IMG/VR virus record: IMGVR_UViG_3300021093_000291
Span: 1-28,575 of that record
Origin: a virus
Reading direction: 5' to 3' (one strand)
Length of the DNA: 28,575 nt
Positions 232 to 28,575 of this stretch are shown here, in pieces. Numbering within the stretch: the stretch's first letter is position 1; each line of letters starts with the position of its first letter. The notes under the pieces were generated by a model, which was given only the letters and a program-made list of their open reading frames with translations, had not been told where the DNA came from and made no database searches. The position numbers and the translations under genes are program-made.

Positions 232-239
232 TATAAATA
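232..239 (+). promoter_or_regulatory. T4-type late promoter (TATAAATA)
   Basis: An exact match to the T4 late-promoter octamer. If the start site lies 6 nt beyond the element, the mRNA begins near 245 and keeps the GAGGT Shine-Dalgarno (246-250) of the gene at 256. It may also supply the transcript from which the tmRNA is processed. Confidence 0.8.
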
Positions 240-255
240 TCCTTTGAGGTACTAT

Positions 256-900
256 ATGAAAACACTCAGAGGACTTTTAGAATCGTTGGTCAAATCAGGT
301 GCTTGGGGATCTTTACAGGAAAGTTCTCCAAAGATGTTTAGACAAGCAAGGCGGCACCAAAAGGGCAGGGAAGATGAAAATGCTGCTATTAGATTGGCTC
401 AAGAAATTAGAACTGGTCAACTTGCTCGGGATAAAAGAAATCAAGAAGTAAGAGATAATAAAGCTGCGCGAGCTGCAGCTGCCGAAATCGCAGCTGCAAG
501 GCAAGAGGCACACGCCAAACGACATAGAGAGACTCTAGATCTTCTAAAAGGATTGCAACACGGTGATGTTGGGTCTGTCATAATTAGAGATAAGAAAACA
601 GGAAAGCCTGGAGAAGAACATCATATTGTCAATCATCAGGGTAGTTTTTACTTAGTAGGCCCAAGAGGCAACACAAGGCAAATTTCACCTCAGTTTGCTA
701 GTGTAGTAAATGGTGCAGTAAATTTAATGAGCATACCAAAAGGTAGAGGAAATGCTAAAGTTATTGCACAAATAGAAGCAAGTGCCCGTAAAGGTGGAGT
801 TGAAGGAATTGATCCAACAAGAGAAAAACCAAATAAATATTCGTATGCAATATTACCAGGCGGTAAATTTGTTATCAAAAGTAATATACGAGGGGGCTAA
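256..900 (+). CDS. 214-aa protein of unknown function, Ala/Arg-rich helical middle
   Basis: I chose ATG 256 (MKTLRGLLESLV) over the upstream in-frame TTG at 244 because GAGGT at 246-250 is well placed for it. A basic, helix-prone segment of roughly residues 40-100, rich in Ala, Arg, Glu and Gln, looks like a coiled coil. It is followed by a compact C-terminal region containing HHIVNHQGSFYLVGPRG. I recognise no catalytic motif, signal peptide or membrane segment. A late promoter lies 16 nt upstream, so a virion or late-assembly role is plausible but inferred. The last codons and the stop (898-900) lie inside the 5' acceptor strand of the tmRNA, so tmRNA 5' maturation would cut this mRNA just before its stop codon. 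Confidence 0.85.
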   Translation: MKTLRGLLESLVKSGAWGSLQESSPKMFRQARRHQKGREDENAAIRLAQEIRTGQLARDKRNQEVRDNKAARAAAAEIAAARQEAHAKRHRETLDLLKGLQHGDVGSVIIRDKKTGKPGEEHHIVNHQGSFYLVGPRGNTRQISPQFASVVNGAVNLMSIPKGRGNAKVIAQIEASARKGGVEGIDPTREKPNKYSYAILPGGKFVIKSNIRGG

Positions 901-1265
901 TCGGATTCGATATTCTAGACAAATGTAGAAGAGCATGACGAAGATGGTTGATGGCTTCGTTAAAAACAACCAAACCACAAATGCCAATACTAGAGCATTT
1001 GCAATGGCTGCTTGAGAAACAGTCGATCCTTAATTCACTAGGACCGTCAAGAGGGTACAGGAAGTGACTCAGATAATTCCTGACTTCTCAAAATCTGATA
1101 GAATCGTTAAAACTAATTGACTTAGGAAACGATTTAAAAAATAAAAGTCAAGACAATTCGTAAGTTTGTTTCTTACCTTACGAAATTGTTTATGAAAAGA
1201 AACTAATCATGTAGTGCTTATACATAAGTATAGGGTACACGGGGGTTCGACTCCCCCGGCCTCCA
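892..1265 (+). ncRNA. ssrA: Transfer-messenger RNA (tmRNA), one-piece, four pseudoknots
   Basis: tmRNA with SmpB rescues stalled ribosomes and adds a degradation tag. The 374-nt RNA closes with a 7-bp acceptor stem: GGGGGCT (892-898) pairs with GGCCTCC (1258-1264), followed by A at 1265. It includes the G3-U70 wobble that marks alanine-accepting RNAs. The T arm is GGGGG-TTCGACT-CCCCC (1241-1257), and the conserved GGATTCGA is at 903-910. Four H-type pseudoknots are visible. PK1: ACGAAG 938/CTTCGT 955 with TGGTTG 945/CAACCA 967. PK2: CAGGAA 1058/TTCCTG 1077 with TCAGAT 1069/ATCTGA 1093. PK3: AATCGT 1102/ACGATT 1129 with TTGACTT 1117/AAGTCAA 1145. PK4: TTCGTAAG 1157/CTTACGAA 1177 with GTTTCTT 1168/AAGAAAC 1197. 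CCA is not encoded. No separate promoter is obvious. Confidence 0.97.
983..1015 (+). other. tmRNA tag reading frame (predicted tag ANTRAFAMAA)
   Basis: Just after PK1 a short frame runs from GCC 983 to TGA 1013-1015 and encodes ANTRAFAMAA. With the alanine carried by tmRNA the tag would be AANTRAFAMAA. It has the same length as the E. coli tag (ANDENYALAA), begins with Ala-Asn, and ends in a hydrophobic residue plus Ala-Ala, as expected for ClpXP-type recognition. An A stands at -4 from the proposed resume codon. ACA (977) is a possible alternative resume codon, giving a tag two residues longer. The frame is sure; the exact resume codon is inferred. Confidence 0.8.
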
Positions 1266-1282: not shown

Positions 1283-1504
1283 ATGAGCAATGAATATATT
1301 CATGTAAAGAAAGTGATTGATGGTAGATGTGTTGATCTTCTGTTTACAGAAGATGAATTCATTGAAGCATCATCCCGTGCAATTGATATCAAAAATTCTA
1401 ATTGCTTAGAAGATGTAACTGGTCAATGTTGGCCGGTAGATAAACCACCAAAGTGTTCGCTTTGGGATCGTATTATGGGTCGTTGTTGCCAGTGTGAAAA
1501 TTAA
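1283..1504 (+). CDS. Small Cys-rich protein of unknown function (73 aa)
   Basis: ATG 1283 (MSNEYIHVKKVIDG) is preceded by AAGGAT at 1271-1276, only 6 nt past the end of the tmRNA. In-frame codons further upstream fall inside the tmRNA and are not used. The first 45 residues alternate strands and acidic helix. The C-terminal third carries six cysteines, including a CCQC close to the end, which could bind a metal. The stop (1502-1504) overlaps the Shine-Dalgarno of the Sm-like gene, so the two are translationally linked. I recognise no family. Confidence 0.75.
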   Translation: MSNEYIHVKKVIDGRCVDLLFTEDEFIEASSRAIDIKNSNCLEDVTGQCWPVDKPPKCSLWDRIMGRCCQCEN

Positions 1505-1513
1505 GGAGATAAT

Positions 1514-1828
1514 ATGGCTAATATTGTTATTACTCGTCTTGTTAGTGGTGAAGAAATTATTGCGAATGTTACTGAGGGAGAAGGTACTCTCACTCTAAAG
1601 GATCCGGCAGTTCTTCTGCCCACCCCCGAAGGTAAGCTCATGTTTGCGAAGTGGCTACCATATGCCGATATTGAAGATGGAATTACTGTAGATACCAAGC
1701 ATGTTCTTTTTACAGTTCCTGCACAGAAGGAACTTGAAGAACACTACAGCACCGTCATCGTTGGTGGTCTTTTTGTGCCACCCGCCAAGAGCATTATCAA
1801 TCCGGCAGATCTGAAACTTAGCGTTTAA
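1514..1828 (+). CDS. Sm/LSm-like small beta-barrel protein (104 aa)
   Basis: ATG 1514 follows AAGGAGAT with good spacing. The protein (MANIVITRLVSGEEIIANV...) begins with the pattern of an Sm fold: strand, a G-E-E turn as in the Sm1 motif, then a chain of strands (TLTLKDPAVLL, LMFAKWLPYAD, KHVLFTVPA). It ends with a helix and a last strand (STVIVGGLFVPP). From memory, proteins of this size and pattern recur in T4-like cyanophages and marine metagenomes, where an Sm-like fold has been described. Sm-like proteins usually form rings that bind RNA. That is an inference here, but the setting between a tmRNA and a tRNA fits. The stop lies within a 7-bp inverted repeat, CGTTTAA-TAAT-TTAAACG (1822-1839). 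Confidence 0.6.
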   Translation: MANIVITRLVSGEEIIANVTEGEGTLTLKDPAVLLPTPEGKLMFAKWLPYADIEDGITVDTKHVLFTVPAQKELEEHYSTVIVGGLFVPPAKSIINPADLKLSV

Positions 1829-1883: not shown

Positions 1884-1957
1884 GTTTCCGTAGCTCAGTT
1901 GGATAGAGCAGCCGCCTTCTAAGCGGCAGGTCATTGGTTCGAACCCAATCGGAAACG
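1884..1957 (+). tRNA. tRNA-Arg(UCU)
   Basis: A full cloverleaf folds in 74 nt. The acceptor stem is GTTTCCG (1884-1890) with CGGAAAC (1950-1956), discriminator G 1957. The D arm is GCTC/GAGC, the anticodon stem GCCGC/GCGGC with loop CTTCTAA (anticodon TCT at 1918-1920). The T arm is ATTGG-TTCGAAC-CCAAT (1933-1949). CCA is not encoded. It reads AGA and AGG, the Arg codons that dominate the phage's virion genes but are absent from gp32. Confidence 0.97.
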
Positions 1958-1964
1958 CTTCAAT

Positions 1965-5024: not shown

Positions 5025-5252
5025 ATGTTCATTGAATTAACCAAAGAAGACTTTTCTAAGAAAGTCGAAAATAGAGTAAAAGAAAAAGAATGCTCCTACA
5101 TGGACGCGATAATTTATATTTTGGAGGAAAACTCTATTGATATAACAGTGTCCCCTAAACTATTATCACAACCAATAGTTGAGAAATTACAGGAAGAGGG
5201 ACAGAAGTTAAATCTTTTACCAAGAAAAAAGAACTCATTACCTTTTGCTTGA
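5025..5252 (+). CDS. 33: Late-promoter transcription accessory protein gp33
   Basis: gp33 bridges host RNA polymerase and the sliding clamp so that the phage sigma factor (gp55) can fire late promoters. The 75-aa product has the core of the short marine type: CSYMDAIIYILEENSID, a strand-to-helix link with SPKLLSQPIVEKLQEEGQ, and the tail LNLLPRKKNSLPFA. The last hydrophobic and basic residues would be the clamp-binding end. It is shorter than T4 gp33 (112 aa). It lies just upstream of gp32, close to the T4 arrangement. The ATG at 5025 has only a weak GAAAGA ribosome-binding site. The TATAAATA elements elsewhere in the window are its expected targets. Confidence 0.85.
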   Translation: MFIELTKEDFSKKVENRVKEKECSYMDAIIYILEENSIDITVSPKLLSQPIVEKLQEEGQKLNLLPRKKNSLPFA

Positions 5253-11728: not shown

Positions 11729-14700
11729 ATGAATGAAGAATTAAACGAATTAGCAAAAGATCAGCCAAGTCCATTTGTATCATTTCTTTCAAGTATCAAG
11801 ATTGAAAAGATTGATAATATTCTAGAAGAAAAGTCTAACTGGAATGTTCTTAGTACATTTGAAGTAGTAGATGCACAAAATTCTGGATTGGGTCAGTCAA
11901 GATTGATGGGTCTTCATATTACGGAAAGTATGTTTACTCCGTTCATATCCGGTCACATCGATGTCATGGATAAACATGACTGGATCGCTCAAATGAACTT
12001 GAACGGTAGTGAAAAAATAACAATAAAATTTTCATTTATCGATAGTCTTGAACCTTTAACTTTAGAGTTTTTCGTTTTCTCTGCTAGAATTATTAATGAC
12101 TTTGCAGGAGTAAATTCACCAAAGATTGAAACTGGAGAAAAGGCTACAATCTATAGATTAGAATTTTTATCCGATGAAATTTTTAATGCAAATTTTAACA
12201 AGTCTATTTTAGAATTAGATAAAGATTTCATAGGATTGATAGCAAAAGGCGGAAATGGTGGAGCAGGATCGGGGGCAGTTCAAAATTTAAATACTGTTCC
12301 AGGTTTAATTGAAACCATAGCAACTAAACTAAAATTAGAACCAATAGAAATAGAAGGAACCAAAAACGGTATTTGGCTAAAGAGTGACGAAATCAGCTAT
12401 CCAAGTGGCATTCAACAAGGACAAATCAACATAGCAAATTTAATGAGTTATGTTACTAATAATGCCGTTCCTAAAGAAAACACAAAAGCACCAAACTTTT
12501 TCTTTTGGAAAGATAGAGATGGTTGGCATTTTAAGTCGGTAGAGAAAATTATAAAAGAAAGTGAAGAGTCCGATGAACTTGTAACTTTCGAAATGAATAC
12601 CGATAATCTTCAAAACAAATATAGAATTCTTTCTGTAGAAGTAGATAAACTTTCTGATAAATTGTCAATGTTCCAAGATAGTGCGTTTATGTCGCATTAT
12701 ATTAAAATGGAACCAAATTATGAAAATTTGTATTCTGATTTTTTAAGTAGTAAAGCAGGATTTACATATTCTACAGTTGACTATGATTATCATAGAGATT
12801 TTCCGTTAGTTAAACATATAGAAAAATATAAACTAATACCAGATCAAGTTCCAACTAATCCTGTTAAAATTCTTTCTGGCGATAATAAAAAAATACCAAT
12901 GCCGGCGACTCGGCTTAGAGATAATACATTTGGGTATTATAAAACTAATATATTAAATACACCATTTGAATACAACATTCATCATTCATCCGATGTCGGG
13001 TTTGGATCTAAACCCGACAATCCAAATTTTGTTTGGTGGGATTACTTAGATAGAGAAAGAGATTCTAGATGGTCGAATGTTGCTTGGCAACCGCAGTTTG
13101 ATATAACAGAATTAGAAATTCAAAAACTATATACAATTTATACAAAAATTCGTCAACCTTTAGAAGAAAAGAGAAAAGAGTTTGTAAAACTCAAGAATCT
13201 AAAAAGGGAATGGGAAGTTTATAGATGTGTTGTATGTTGTGCTACTAACTCTATTGGAAGCACAGCAGATGTTAAATTATTTAATGATCCATCAGGTATA
13301 ACAAATCCAGATGAATTTAAAATGCTTTTTGGAAATGATGGAATATTTGGCGGAGAACAAGAATACAAGATTGTTGCCGCGGGATCTTTCACTGATACTA
13401 TAAATTATGATTCTGCATTTTCCGAAATACAGCATGGATTAAGTTTAGCAATAAATGTAAATAATCCATCTTTCATGCTGCCTCAAGGTGTAAATGGAGA
13501 AGACTACAAACCAAACGAATGGTATAAGTCTTCAATAGGACAATTCTTTAATTTAAATGATACCATAACAAGTTATACACAAGGTGTTTTGTCTAGAGGC
13601 CTCGTGCAATATGAATTTGAAAAACAAGTACTTAATACAAAATTAACAAATGCTAAAACATTTTTAGAAAAAGTACCAAATTATATTGAAAAAGCAAATC
13701 AATGGATAGAAAGTAGATTGCTAGATTGTTGTAATAAATTAGAATCAACCGCATCTGAAGAGATTCAAACATTTACATCTTCCCTTGCTGATGATGTTGA
13801 TTATTCTGCACTTTGTAATGTTTTACCATCACCAGCAGGACAATTAATATTTGCAACTGATCCTAGTAATTTCTATGACTATTTTTCTAATTCATATTCA
13901 GGTGAGTTTGCTGGAGGAAACGGAGAAATACTACCATATCCTGACTCAAATTTTGATGCAACTGATAGTTGTTCCGTTGATGCTTGGGGATATCAGGTTG
14001 GTCGCCGTGGGTCATCTAGGTACAAAAATTATTATGATTCACATAATAATTTTAATACTTACTACTATACTGATTATAATTATAATTTTAATACTCCTCA
14101 CACTGAGATTTATAATTGGATACAACATATTCTATCTGGTGAGGAAAGTGTTTATGATCCTGAAGCTGATGATGGAAGTCAAATTCTAAAGTATGAAAAG
14201 TGTAGAGCCACAGGGGTAATTCGTTATTCTGGCTCCTATGGTCAACTGAATTGGTCAAATTCAAAATATAATGGACTTAACATACCAGAAGTGCGTCAAG
14301 ATGAAATTCAAAATCTTGGTGGTATTCCTACTCTTAGAAGATGTACTGGTGCGGCCGCAAGAAATTCTTTTATAACTATTTCGTTTGGACAATTTAATTT
14401 TGTTCCATGTGGTGCTCAAAATGTTTTACTGAGTGATTTAGATGCATCGGCGGCCGCGAGGGCGCTTGCTAATGATGGTTACATCTATGGAGATGCCGCA
14501 AAAAACGGAACATCATCTGTAATTCCATATACATTTCCAATCGGGGGATTTTATTGCTTTGGTGATCCAAGAAAACAAGAAAATCAAACATCAACGGCGG
14601 ATAAATGGTTTGCTTATGATCATAATTGGTGTCAACAGTGTAGATGGCAAACAGATAACTTTACAGATTTAGAATCGCAATGTTATCTTGTAGATAAATG

Positions 14701-17700
14701 GATGACAGAAATATATGGAGTATCTGGGGCATCTGCTCCTCCTGAAGAAGTATTTTTGTGGGAGAGTTTTAGAAAAAAATTAGAAGATAAAATAAATCAA
14801 GATACACAAAGTTCTTGCGGTAGATATATCGTACAACCACTTACTAGATTAATTTTTTCAACCATTGGTGAAGGTATAGACACTGGCACAGATATCTCTC
14901 CCCCTATATTTAATCAGTCACAGAGCCTTCTTTCAACCGTTTTAGGCCAATGTGCCATGAGAAAAACAAAAAGTTTAGTTCCGAAAGGCGATATCACAGT
15001 ACTAAATGATATAACTCGCGGACCTTGTAGTGATGAGCCAACTTTTTATAATGGAAAACCCTGTGATCATGAATATGATACTAATGATACAACCTGGAAC
15101 GTAGGGTACGAAGTATATAATCAACCATATATGTCATGTGCCGAGTGTGGATATGTTGGTGGACTTTGGCTTCCATTATTTTCTGTACAAAAAGTACTGA
15201 CAAGTGTGGAAGGAGAAACCAGTTGTCAACCAGGAGGTCCTGCTTGCTTAAACAAAGGATGTACTGATACATTAACTGGAAGTGTATTTAGTAGAGAACC
15301 ATCCGCTTGTGTTGGATTTAATTATGTGGATGGTCTTGGAGAAATTCCTTTAATAGTTCTACCTTCCAATAAATGTATAAAATGTAACAATTTCTTAGAA
15401 TCAGAGAATGATAAGGAATTTGATAAATCTAATTGTTGCAATTGTTCTCCCGAACAAGAAAAATCTTTTGTTGACTATAAAACAGATGAAACCCTTGAGT
15501 GGTGTAGAGAATGCTCAAAGGATCAATTTGTCAATCTATTAGCACAATACATTGGTTCTGAAGATAATTGGTATAACTCTTATGGGTATATTCCTGGTGG
15601 TGGATCTGGATTTACAGATCTTGATGAATATATCGGTCTTAATTCAAATTTACAAGTGACAAGACAATGTTTACAAGATGATAATTGTTATAATAAATTA
15701 TGTTTCAATCCATTATATCTTGAAGCAGAAGCCCGAAGAGCGAAACAAGAAATTAAAATACTAGAAGCTCAAATAAAATTATTAGATTATACAAAAAACA
15801 TAGTACAACAAGGACTTGTTTCTCAATTTAATACACTATATCAAGAGTGGTGGAATAGAAAAGCATTCTTTTATTCTAAGATTCCCGGTAAAAATATATT
15901 TACTGATGTTTCAACTGGTATAACAGGAAGCATCGAAGGCGGAAGAACCGGTCCAGTTATATCTGATTTATCTTTGTTCAATATTAAGTCCATAAAGAAA
16001 AAATCAATTAGAGGTAGTCGTTATGAGTTGTTAGCAAAAAATAAAGGTATAACCGGAGCACAAATAGGAGAATGGTTATATAACTTTGCATGGAATATAC
16101 CGGCTCAAGACGAACCAGTATCTACCCAAGCAAATACTAAACACCCATATTATTCTCAAAAATATCAATCTAATTTTATATCACAAAGACAAGTGTTTAA
16201 AAATTATAATTATTTAAATTATAATAAATTTAATGATTTTCCATTTGGTGAGTATGCAGAACAACCATATGCACCAGATGAAAAATTTTGTTTTAATATT
16301 GTTAATGCAGAAAGCACAATAATTTCATTACCAGAAACTCAAGTTAGTTTAATAGATAACATTGAATTAGAAGTAAATGAACAATTGCAGTTTACTCAAA
16401 ATGATTTATCTCAAGGTGTTGATCCGGTAAATTATCACAATACATTTAATATTTTTAATATTAATGAAAATTCAATACCAGCAAACCTAAAGAAAGAGCA
16501 ACTTTCAACATATGTCAGAATTGAATTTGAAACACCAATAGGACTGGATAGAATCATAGACTTCCCTGATGGGTTTGTTCGTGATGCAGGAACAGAGTAT
16601 TTCTTACCATATCTGGTATCTTTAACTGCGGGTCCAACCGGTCGTCAAACTATAAGAAATAATGTAGTTGTTATTGGTATGGATCCCTATGGGTTTGATG
16701 TTGCTGTTAAGAAATCTCCAATTTCAGATGAAGAAACCGATAAACAACAACACTGGTGGGATGAATATAGAAATCTAAATGATACTTCATTAACAAACAA
16801 CGGAATGGATCTTTGGCCAGAAGTTGGGTTTGAAACTAACTATCCATATTATGCATCAGATCCAAAGGGTTGGTGGTGGAAGTCATCGTGGTATCATGGA
16901 GAAGGAACTCCAGATCTGAAGTTGGAAAATACAAATAGTTATGATATATTCTCTAGATCCGCAGATGTAGATCCAGAGTATAAAGAAAGTGCTCACGGTA
17001 GTGGTTATCTACAATACTCGTATAGAAAAGTAAAACCACATAGATCATGGTGGTCTTTCCATATCCCAAAGAATATATTCATACCACAAAAACTATTCCC
17101 AATATTAGCAAAGAAATTTGGATCAATGACAGGATCTTCTAGTGGTGTTCTTGGTGATATTTACGCATACAAGTATCAAGATTACTACTGGTGGTATGGC
17201 GACGACTTAGACCGTTGGTTGAGATTAACGGAAGATGGAAAAAATCTAGCAGAAGGCATTAAAATGCTAAGTGTTAGATCGGCTGAATTTGGAGGAACAG
17301 AACCACTTTCAAATTATGCACATGTACACAATGAGGATTCTTTAGATCTTGTTGATGGTGCAGTAGAAAAATACTTCTACGAAACTACACTTCACTGGTT
17401 AAGAGGTGACTTTGTAATGTATAAACCAGGTTTATTAACTGAAGATGTATGGAAATATGACTTAACTGGGGAAACTGAGTACGGTTTAGTATCTCCAAAA
17501 ACAATGGCACCAAACTACGATGTATTTGATGATAATTTCTCAGCACAGTTCATAGTTTTCTCCAGAGATACAAAAAATCTTTGTAAAACTTTCACTTGTG
17601 CAAATCCAAATGGAACAGTTTCAAATTCAATTTGTCCTCCAAATGATCCTTATTGTTTGTGTCCTGCAAAAGATAGAATGCCAAAGGAAAATGAACCTAG

Positions 17701-18217
17701 TTACTTGGAACTTTATAGAAAATATAAAGAAATCAAAGAATGTGAACTAATCAAGAAAAATCTAGGAGAACAATATCTTGGATGCATATGGAGCGATCCA
17801 TCAAACCCATGCAGTTGTAATTGTCCAGAGGTAGGAGAAAAGTTTGTTGATTACTTAAAGTATACTAGAACCTATGCAACATTCTGGGATACTCCTAGAG
17901 CAACACCACTTATCAGAAAAGCACTAATGACGCAACTTGCCTCTCAGCAAATTTCTGTTCAAATTCCTGCTACTAGTAAGGTTAAAATTGGTAACATTAT
18001 CCAAATAAATCACTACGCAGGAATAAATCTAAGTTTTGAAAGACAAGAGAAAAACTTACACGGTAAATGGTTGGTTGCTGAAATTGTAAACTCATTCTAC
18101 AAGGATGCGAATCAAAGCATGAGAATGACTCTAATACGAGATTCGTCTCCAGTTGAACCAGATTACACCTACAGTATAATCAGAGATTTATTAGGGGGAG
18201 CAGGCTTTTTAATTTAA
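11729..18217 (+). CDS. Giant baseplate hub-type protein, gp27/VrlC-like (2162 aa)
   Basis: Residues about 40-370 look like the paired barrels of a gp27-type hub (FEVVDAQNSGLGQ, GLHITESMFTPFISGHIDVMDK). The last 100 residues (KALMTQLASQQISVQIPATSKVKIGNIIQI, then GKWLVAEIVNSFY) look like the hub's closing barrel. Between them lies an insertion of roughly 1600 residues: a helical stretch near 465-500 ending CVVCC, Tyr/Asn-rich repeats near 755-790, Cys-rich segments (WCQQCRW, CAECGYVGG, CIKCNN, CCNCSPEQ, WCRECS), a coiled coil near 1327-1363, and Cys clusters at about 1955-1985 and 2020-2035. Giant ORFs in this slot of marine T4-like phages are often labelled VrlC. Cysteines may bind zinc or cross-link. 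Two NotI octamers lie at 14351 and 14450. Confidence 0.65.
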   Translation: MNEELNELAKDQPSPFVSFLSSIKIEKIDNILEEKSNWNVLSTFEVVDAQNSGLGQSRLMGLHITESMFTPFISGHIDVMDKHDWIAQMNLNGSEKITIKFSFIDSLEPLTLEFFVFSARIINDFAGVNSPKIETGEKATIYRLEFLSDEIFNANFNKSILELDKDFIGLIAKGGNGGAGSGAVQNLNTVPGLIETIATKLKLEPIEIEGTKNGIWLKSDEISYPSGIQQGQINIANLMSYVTNNAVPKENTKAPNFFFWKDRDGWHFKSVEKIIKESEESDELVTFEMNTDNLQNKYRILSVEVDKLSDKLSMFQDSAFMSHYIKMEPNYENLYSDFLSSKAGFTYSTVDYDYHRDFPLVKHIEKYKLIPDQVPTNPVKILSGDNKKIPMPATRLRDNTFGYYKTNILNTPFEYNIHHSSDVGFGSKPDNPNFVWWDYLDRERDSRWSNVAWQPQFDITELEIQKLYTIYTKIRQPLEEKRKEFVKLKNLKREWEVYRCVVCCATNSIGSTADVKLFNDPSGITNPDEFKMLFGNDGIFGGEQEYKIVAAGSFTDTINYDSAFSEIQHGLSLAINVNNPSFMLPQGVNGEDYKPNEWYKSSIGQFFNLNDTITSYTQGVLSRGLVQYEFEKQVLNTKLTNAKTFLEKVPNYIEKANQWIESRLLDCCNKLESTASEEIQTFTSSLADDVDYSALCNVLPSPAGQLIFATDPSNFYDYFSNSYSGEFAGGNGEILPYPDSNFDATDSCSVDAWGYQVGRRGSSRYKNYYDSHNNFNTYYYTDYNYNFNTPHTEIYNWIQHILSGEESVYDPEADDGSQILKYEKCRATGVIRYSGSYGQLNWSNSKYNGLNIPEVRQDEIQNLGGIPTLRRCTGAAARNSFITISFGQFNFVPCGAQNVLLSDLDASAAARALANDGYIYGDAAKNGTSSVIPYTFPIGGFYCFGDPRKQENQTSTADKWFAYDHNWCQQCRWQTDNFTDLESQCYLVDKWMTEIYGVSGASAPPEEVFLWESFRKKLEDKINQDTQSSCGRYIVQPLTRLIFSTIGEGIDTGTDISPPIFNQSQSLLSTVLGQCAMRKTKSLVPKGDITVLNDITRGPCSDEPTFYNGKPCDHEYDTNDTTWNVGYEVYNQPYMSCAECGYVGGLWLPLFSVQKVLTSVEGETSCQPGGPACLNKGCTDTLTGSVFSREPSACVGFNYVDGLGEIPLIVLPSNKCIKCNNFLESENDKEFDKSNCCNCSPEQEKSFVDYKTDETLEWCRECSKDQFVNLLAQYIGSEDNWYNSYGYIPGGGSGFTDLDEYIGLNSNLQVTRQCLQDDNCYNKLCFNPLYLEAEARRAKQEIKILEAQIKLLDYTKNIVQQGLVSQFNTLYQEWWNRKAFFYSKIPGKNIFTDVSTGITGSIEGGRTGPVISDLSLFNIKSIKKKSIRGSRYELLAKNKGITGAQIGEWLYNFAWNIPAQDEPVSTQANTKHPYYSQKYQSNFISQRQVFKNYNYLNYNKFNDFPFGEYAEQPYAPDEKFCFNIVNAESTIISLPETQVSLIDNIELEVNEQLQFTQNDLSQGVDPVNYHNTFNIFNINENSIPANLKKEQLSTYVRIEFETPIGLDRIIDFPDGFVRDAGTEYFLPYLVSLTAGPTGRQTIRNNVVVIGMDPYGFDVAVKKSPISDEETDKQQHWWDEYRNLNDTSLTNNGMDLWPEVGFETNYPYYASDPKGWWWKSSWYHGEGTPDLKLENTNSYDIFSRSADVDPEYKESAHGSGYLQYSYRKVKPHRSWWSFHIPKNIFIPQKLFPILAKKFGSMTGSSSGVLGDIYAYKYQDYYWWYGDDLDRWLRLTEDGKNLAEGIKMLSVRSAEFGGTEPLSNYAHVHNEDSLDLVDGAVEKYFYETTLHWLRGDFVMYKPGLLTEDVWKYDLTGETEYGLVSPKTMAPNYDVFDDNFSAQFIVFSRDTKNLCKTFTCANPNGTVSNSICPPNDPYCLCPAKDRMPKENEPSYLELYRKYKEIKECELIKKNLGEQYLGCIWSDPSNPCSCNCPEVGEKFVDYLKYTRTYATFWDTPRATPLIRKALMTQLASQQISVQIPATSKVKIGNIIQINHYAGINLSFERQEKNLHGKWLVAEIVNSFYKDANQSMRMTLIRDSSPVEPDYTYSIIRDLLGGAGFLI

Positions 18218-28380: not shown

Positions 28381-28575
28381 ATGCCATCTAGTCAAGGTAG
28401 TAGTAGATTATTTCGAACAACAATTCAAAGAATCGTTGGGTACACTGGCCCAACAGGTCCTATAGGTCCTACTGGTTCAACTGGATCTACTGGAACTACA
28501 GGATACGGCCCAACAGGAAATACTGGACCTAGTCTAGTAAATATAACATTAAATGATAAAAGAATAGTAAGTTCT
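28381..28575 (+). CDS. Start of a collagen-like fibre protein (runs off the window)
   Basis: ATG 28381 opens 65 codons to the right edge. After a 19-residue basic start (MPSSQGSSRLFRTTIQRIV) come Gly-X-Y triplets from G20 to about G49 (GYTGPTGPIGPTGSTGSTG), with one break at G41-Y42-G43. Phage fibres often use such collagen-like shafts as trimeric stalks. After it begins a strand-rich segment (LVNITLNDKRIVSS). There is no clear Shine-Dalgarno and the gap to the upstream gene is 4 nt. The frame is incomplete, so length and C-terminal domain are unknown. Confidence 0.8.
   Translation, partial: MPSSQGSSRLFRTTIQRIVGYTGPTGPIGPTGSTGSTGTTGYGPTGNTGPSLVNITLNDKRIVSS

Follow-up and report, generated by a model that had tools for sequence, protein, structure and literature searches.

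A one-piece tmRNA gene with clade-specific tags in T4-like phages

The tmRNA locus and the phage that carries it

The window analyzed here is an entire IMG/VR record of 28,575 bases and represents a phage fragment. Its proteins match the PHROG families of gp33, gp32, tail tube gp19, head closure gp4, and the gp53 and gp25 baseplate types. A gp6 is also present, whose nearest matches are cyanophage baseplate wedge proteins at <34% identity, while gp32 is nearest to cyanophage gp32 at ~59% identity. These matches agree with the T4-like affiliation that had been proposed in an earlier reading of the sequence alone. The features around the tmRNA gene, together with a late transcription regulator encoded further downstream, are as follows:

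232..239, + strand: T4-type late promoter motif TATAAATA, 16 nt before the upstream ORF
256..900, + strand: upstream ORF, 214 aa (MKTLRGLLESL...), with its stop TAA at 898-900 inside the mature tmRNA
892..1265, + strand: one-piece tmRNA gene (ssrA), 374 nt, CCA not encoded (ARAGORN and RF00023)
983..1015, + strand: tag frame ANTRAFAMAA with TGA stop, conserved in close relatives
1283..1504, + strand: downstream ORF, 73 aa, a conserved syntenic neighbor
1514..1828, + strand: PHROG 527 protein, 104 aa, a conserved syntenic neighbor
1884..1958, + strand: tRNA-Arg (TCT) downstream of the tmRNA (ARAGORN), conserved in relatives
5025..5252, + strand: gp33-like late promoter transcriptional regulator (PHROG 254, E 3.9e-22)

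The upstream ORF has no PHROG or Pfam match. It evolves fast, with 56-74% identity in close relatives and just a MKTLRDIL-type start retained in distant ones, and its N-terminus is one that we take to resemble the capsid-targeting leaders of T4 internal head proteins. Elsewhere in the window, positions 11729-18217 encode a 2162-aa tail protein with an N-terminal PHROG 350 match and a long Cys-rich middle. Frames with collagen-like GPTGPTG repeats occur among putative tail-fibre genes, both at 28381-28575 and in a related contig (L317:3220-12618). The gene content of the wider clade is best seen in a 156.7 kb record from it, which encodes ThyX, an IMPDH/GMP reductase-type enzyme, glycosyltransferases, 11 tRNAs and the tmRNA.

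A tmRNA releases ribosomes that have stalled and marks their incomplete products for degradation. ARAGORN reports a single tmRNA in the window at 892-1265 (+) with the tag ANTRAFAMAA*, and the Rfam model RF00023 matches 892-1268 over its complete length (model 1-374), scoring 116.4 bits where the cut-off is 47 (E = 3.7e-45). A complete one-piece tmRNA had been read from the letters at this position, with a covariance model and ARAGORN suggested as the check, and the two detectors agree on 892-1265. The tag frame reads GCC AAT ACT AGA GCA TTT GCA ATG GCT GCT TGA. Its resume codon lies downstream of pseudoknot 1 and is preceded by an A at -4, and the tag closes with the hydrophobic-Ala-Ala and stop pattern looked for in one-piece tmRNAs. 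The order of 5' acceptor strand, tag and 3' acceptor strand recovered by ARAGORN and Rfam is the one-piece arrangement, which excludes the permuted, two-piece form (RF04321) for this gene, although RF04321 does give weak sub-threshold echoes on its relatives.

A 3' CCA is not encoded: the gene closes with ...CCTCCA, after which the window has TTA and its relatives have TTA, TTC or CTA. Encoded CCA ends are common but not universal in tmRNA genes and can be added by a host enzyme, so this feature is not decisive.

Secondary structure and covariation

The helices of the window's tmRNA, all on the + strand, are:

892..898: acceptor stem, 5' strand, pairing with 1258-1264 (7/7), including G3-U70
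911..1237: long helix P2 (911-917/1231-1237, 924-927/1221-1224, 933-937/1208-1212)
939..971: pseudoknot 1 (939-943/955-959, 946-950/967-971)
1006..1024: helix 5, in which the tag end GGCTG (1006-1010) pairs with CAGTC (1020-1024)
1058..1098: pseudoknot 2 (1058-1063/1077-1082, 1069-1074/1093-1098)
1102..1151: pseudoknot 3 (1102-1108/1128-1134, 1117-1123/1145-1151), with other letters but the pairing kept in relatives
1154..1203: pseudoknot 4 (1154-1164/1177-1188 with one bulge, 1168-1174/1197-1203), with compensatory changes
1241..1257: T arm GGGGG-TTCGACT-CCCCC, 5/5 pairs
1258..1265: acceptor stem, 3' strand, with discriminator A (pairing check)

Every helix written down for the acceptor, P2, both stems of each of the four pseudoknots and the T arm pairs fully in the window. 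The minimum free energy fold, in which pseudoknots are ignored, is 3.8 sd better than those of shuffled sequences. The G3-U70 pair, the TTCGACT T-loop and the four pseudoknots with paired stems had all been named in the sequence-only reading and are all present. With two detectors in agreement and every helix pairing, that reading of the gene was right in all points tested.

Comparison with relatives showed that the stems are conserved as pairs rather than as letters. Among the ten sequences with the tag ANTRAFAMAA, G3-U70 is invariant and 93.8% of pair cells are standard pairs, falling to 34-45% once the partner columns are shifted by 1-3 positions; 20 cells have changed on both sides, and P2a carries a compensatory change. 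These counts come only from the ten-member alignment, since an alignment of 17 sequences misplaced the acceptor stems of three members (L130, L131 and L147), and within the ten-member alignment the second stem of pseudoknot 3 is misaligned (48% paired) though present in each sequence. In two further lineages with other tags, pseudoknots 1 to 4 are rebuilt with different sequences while pairing is retained; in pseudoknot 2, for example, GGAAAG/CTTTCC replaces CAGGAA/TTCCTG. A chance match or a misread tRNA is ruled out by ARAGORN, RF00023 and these pairing statistics.

Pseudoknot 3 (1102-1151 in the window) occurs in two unrelated-looking versions within the ANTRAFAMAA group. The window has the same version as L130, while in acceptor variant and upstream ORF it goes with L129. 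This mixed sharing suggests recombination inside the tmRNA gene.

Distribution and inheritance in the phage clade

Across related IMG/VR contigs, 17 tmRNAs occupy the same genomic place, with a MK-L-LLE-type ORF on one side and homologs of the 1283-1504 ORF and of the PHROG 527 protein on the other. They encode three tags, ANTRAFAMAA, ANNTLALAA (L147) and ANNNNYMAIAA (L151 and L152 according to ARAGORN, and L139-L143 as read off the alignment), each of which is restricted to its own subclade in a tree of gp32. Every tmRNA contig falls in one clade of this tree (SH-aLRT 96). The locus is visible and lacks a tmRNA in 23 contigs, most of them outside the clade, and the 98.7 kb record G036 has none either. 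Within the clade, the gene is missing from the visible loci of two subclades (L067/L072 and L073), and it is therefore dispensable in some hosts. Given a distribution confined to one clade and tags sorted by subclade, one gain followed by a few losses is the simplest history.

Origin of the tmRNA

The tag had been described as unlike that of any familiar host group, and this holds in far larger sets. ANTRAFAMAA followed by a stop was found in none of the 84,980 GTDB species genomes scanned, and in a scan of 2.9 million viral contigs it occurred in nine, all from this clade. The tag search proposed as a route to the source lineage thus returned no bacterial genome. In a tree with 75 bacterial tmRNAs, a branch of SH-aLRT 100 sets nine phage tmRNAs apart from these, a result to be read with the provisos that the bacterial tmRNAs were picked by sequence pattern, that base composition differs, and that the tree program warned of odd composition. 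Matches to the same 75 sequences are local, at 63-81% identity; only short stretches at the 3' end are nearly identical. No similar bacterial sequence was found in 11 named genomes. BLASTN at E 1e-4 likewise gave no match in any of 399 genomes from the phylum of the SAR86 reference, which is a weak result, since a distant blastn query will usually miss a bacterial tmRNA.

The one-piece form had been taken to argue against simple capture from marine picocyanobacteria or alphaproteobacteria. This is reasonable and is helped by the absence of psbA in the clade: the gene was found in 5 of 21 related records scanned, all 5 outside the tmRNA clade, and not in the 156.7 kb clade record.

Since tmRNA genes often serve as integration sites, the phage could in principle have picked up a host tmRNA recently, either as passenger DNA or as a remnant of past integration at ssrA, and exchange with a temperate phage was proposed for the tmRNA of phage Melnitz by its authors (PMC9004378). 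We regard such a recent capture as very improbable here. The gene is full length rather than a 3' fragment, it lies among the same neighbors in at least nine independent contigs, it has split into three tag lineages whose stems are compensated, and no integrase was found among the scanned window proteins. The GTDB tag scan, the 75 bacterial tmRNAs and the 399 genomes searched at E 1e-4 also yielded no close bacterial sequence. The variants of this lineage thus argue against the gene being an integration scar. The shared position, the clade-sorted tags, the compensated stems, the grouping of the phage tmRNAs with one another and the absence of the tag from species genomes instead show it to be a maintained phage gene, mostly inherited vertically, in a lineage that has kept its tmRNA for long enough to develop tags of its own.

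A distant relative (L160) carries a permuted tmRNA at 2172-2491 (RF04321, 80.8 bits), about 1.3 kb upstream of a homolog of the window's 1283-1504 ORF. The presence of this second type near the homologous spot indicates that tmRNAs have been acquired more than once in the wider phage group. The apparent tag end of the permuted gene, ...MRMAA, was read by eye; ARAGORN does not report this gene. Among bacterial sequences, the tmRNAs of two freshwater proteobacterial MAGs (L182 and L198) were both assigned the tag ATTSARPSRLS by ARAGORN, without an -AA end, which is probably a misread frame.

Expression and the upstream stop codon

The motif TATAAATA is the core of the T4 late promoter. In relatives whose locus reaches that far it lies 545-663 nt before the tmRNA. 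The motif is not enriched overall in the AT-rich window (7 seen, ~9 expected), and 4 of the 7 copies fall in the last 30 nt ahead of a gene start (binomial ~1e-6). Directly before the tmRNA we found no convincing sigma-70 promoter. Taken with the gp33-type regulator, this arrangement suggests that the tmRNA is probably co-transcribed late with the upstream ORF and then released by RNase P.

The upstream ORF ends close to the mature tmRNA. Of 17 tmRNAs, 14 have a gap of 0-1 nt between this stop and their 5' end, and these 14 cover all three tag lineages. L137 has a gap of +10; the window and L129, at -9, have the stop inside the tmRNA. The predicted RNase P site in the window, 891/892, is a codon boundary following CGA. 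In the same loci, the spacing between a tRNA gene and the ORF before it is mostly 6-55 nt; larger gaps also occur, and some tRNA genes seem to overlap unverified ORFs. One reading of this abutment is that maturation of the tmRNA creates its own substrate: if the cut at 891/892 came before translation ended, the upstream message would be stripped of its stop, and ribosomes there would be rescued and their products tagged by the same tmRNA. The output of tmRNA would then be coupled to loss of the upstream protein. We think this improbable, and the abutment may be mere compactness.

Proposed function

We know of no established purpose for phage tmRNAs, though they have been listed for years. For the gene described here, we consider it likely that it is a functional, phage-maintained tmRNA which is transcribed late and, with the assistance of the host, rescues ribosomes during infection. 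No SmpB gene was found among 21 related phage records, so SmpB must come from the host, and with it AlaRS, EF-Tu, the addition of CCA and proteases. Transcription would begin late at the TATAAATA promoter (232) and run through the upstream ORF, and host RNase P would free the tmRNA 5' end. Host enzymes would add CCA, and AlaRS would be expected to recognize G3-U70 and charge the molecule with alanine. The alanyl-tmRNA, bound to host SmpB and EF-Tu, would move into ribosomes that had stalled on mRNAs broken or lacking a stop, which build up during infection. It would append A-ANTRAFAMAA and release the ribosome at the TGA, and ClpXP or another host protease would receive the tagged protein. The phage would likely gain a continued supply of free ribosomes for its late proteins. 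Keeping ribosomes moving late in infection had been offered as a function in the sequence-only reading and is the one that we favor, with the late promoter motif supporting the timing. In other systems, mycobacteriophage Wildcat expresses its tmRNA more highly than any other gene during lytic growth (PMC7474061), and host SsrA is abundant throughout T4 infection (PMC9697503).

Selection could instead have acted on tagging rather than on rescue, with the phage tag giving stalled host or phage proteins a fate other than that given by the host tag, such as another protease or adaptor, or slower decay. The tags are private to the clade, they differ among subclades while their ends stay -AA, and ANTRAFAMAA lacks an ANDENY part, the portion of the tag bound by SspB in E. 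coli. Bacterial tags are equally variable, however, with only the -AA end kept (ANTQLSMAA, AESQLSMAA), and -MAA is still a plausible ClpX signal. We consider the tagging explanation unlikely.

The phage tmRNA could also be a decoy, binding to host SmpB or to the ribosome and thereby inhibiting trans-translation in the host. A molecule consisting of the TLD only strongly inhibits tmRNA, perhaps by titration of SmpB, and a decoy-like role has been suggested for the TLD-only molecule of mycobacteriophage DS6A (PMC4131195). The clade's genes conserve the whole mRNA-like domain, the tag, the stop codon and the pseudoknots with compensation, none of which a decoy would need, and this makes a decoy role hardly credible here. 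Ribosome rescue and tagging, or both together, can be told apart by experiment once a member of the clade is cultured, since this one T4-like lineage offers close variants with the tmRNA, with a changed tag and without the tmRNA, along with a putative late promoter.

Comparison with known tmRNAs

The window's tmRNA shares with the bacterial one-piece form (RF00023) the tRNA-like domain, G3-U70, P2, four pseudoknots and the tag frame ending in -AA and a stop, over 374 nt. It differs in being carried by a phage, in not encoding CCA, in its private tag, and in grouping with phage tmRNAs rather than with any bacterial one sampled.

Among phages, ssrA had been described as rare. This needs qualifying, as tmRNA was found in 402 of 18,146 phage genomes (2.3%) in a 2021 set, where one-piece forms are seldom marine (PMC9004378), and a 2014 list included ssrA in eight mycobacteriophages and Bacillus phage G, with only the tRNA-like part in DS6A (PMC4131195). 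A one-piece form in marine phages does look uncommon in the 2021 set. The complete ssrA genes on the 2014 list come from phage groups that are not T4-like, and blastn against 50,697 phage records returned only a match of 27-32 nt at the tmRNA 3' end.

A further parallel is Melnitz, also a T4-like aquatic phage with a full tmRNA that is patchily distributed among relatives. Its tmRNA is permuted and two-piece, has alphaproteobacterial affinity, lies near a glutamine riboswitch and was placed after an early promoter by its authors, whereas that of the window is one-piece and lies behind a late promoter motif (PMC9004378). Phage tmRNAs were thus known before; what is new is the clade, its private tags, the late-promoter setting, and an upstream stop codon that abuts or lies inside the tmRNA.
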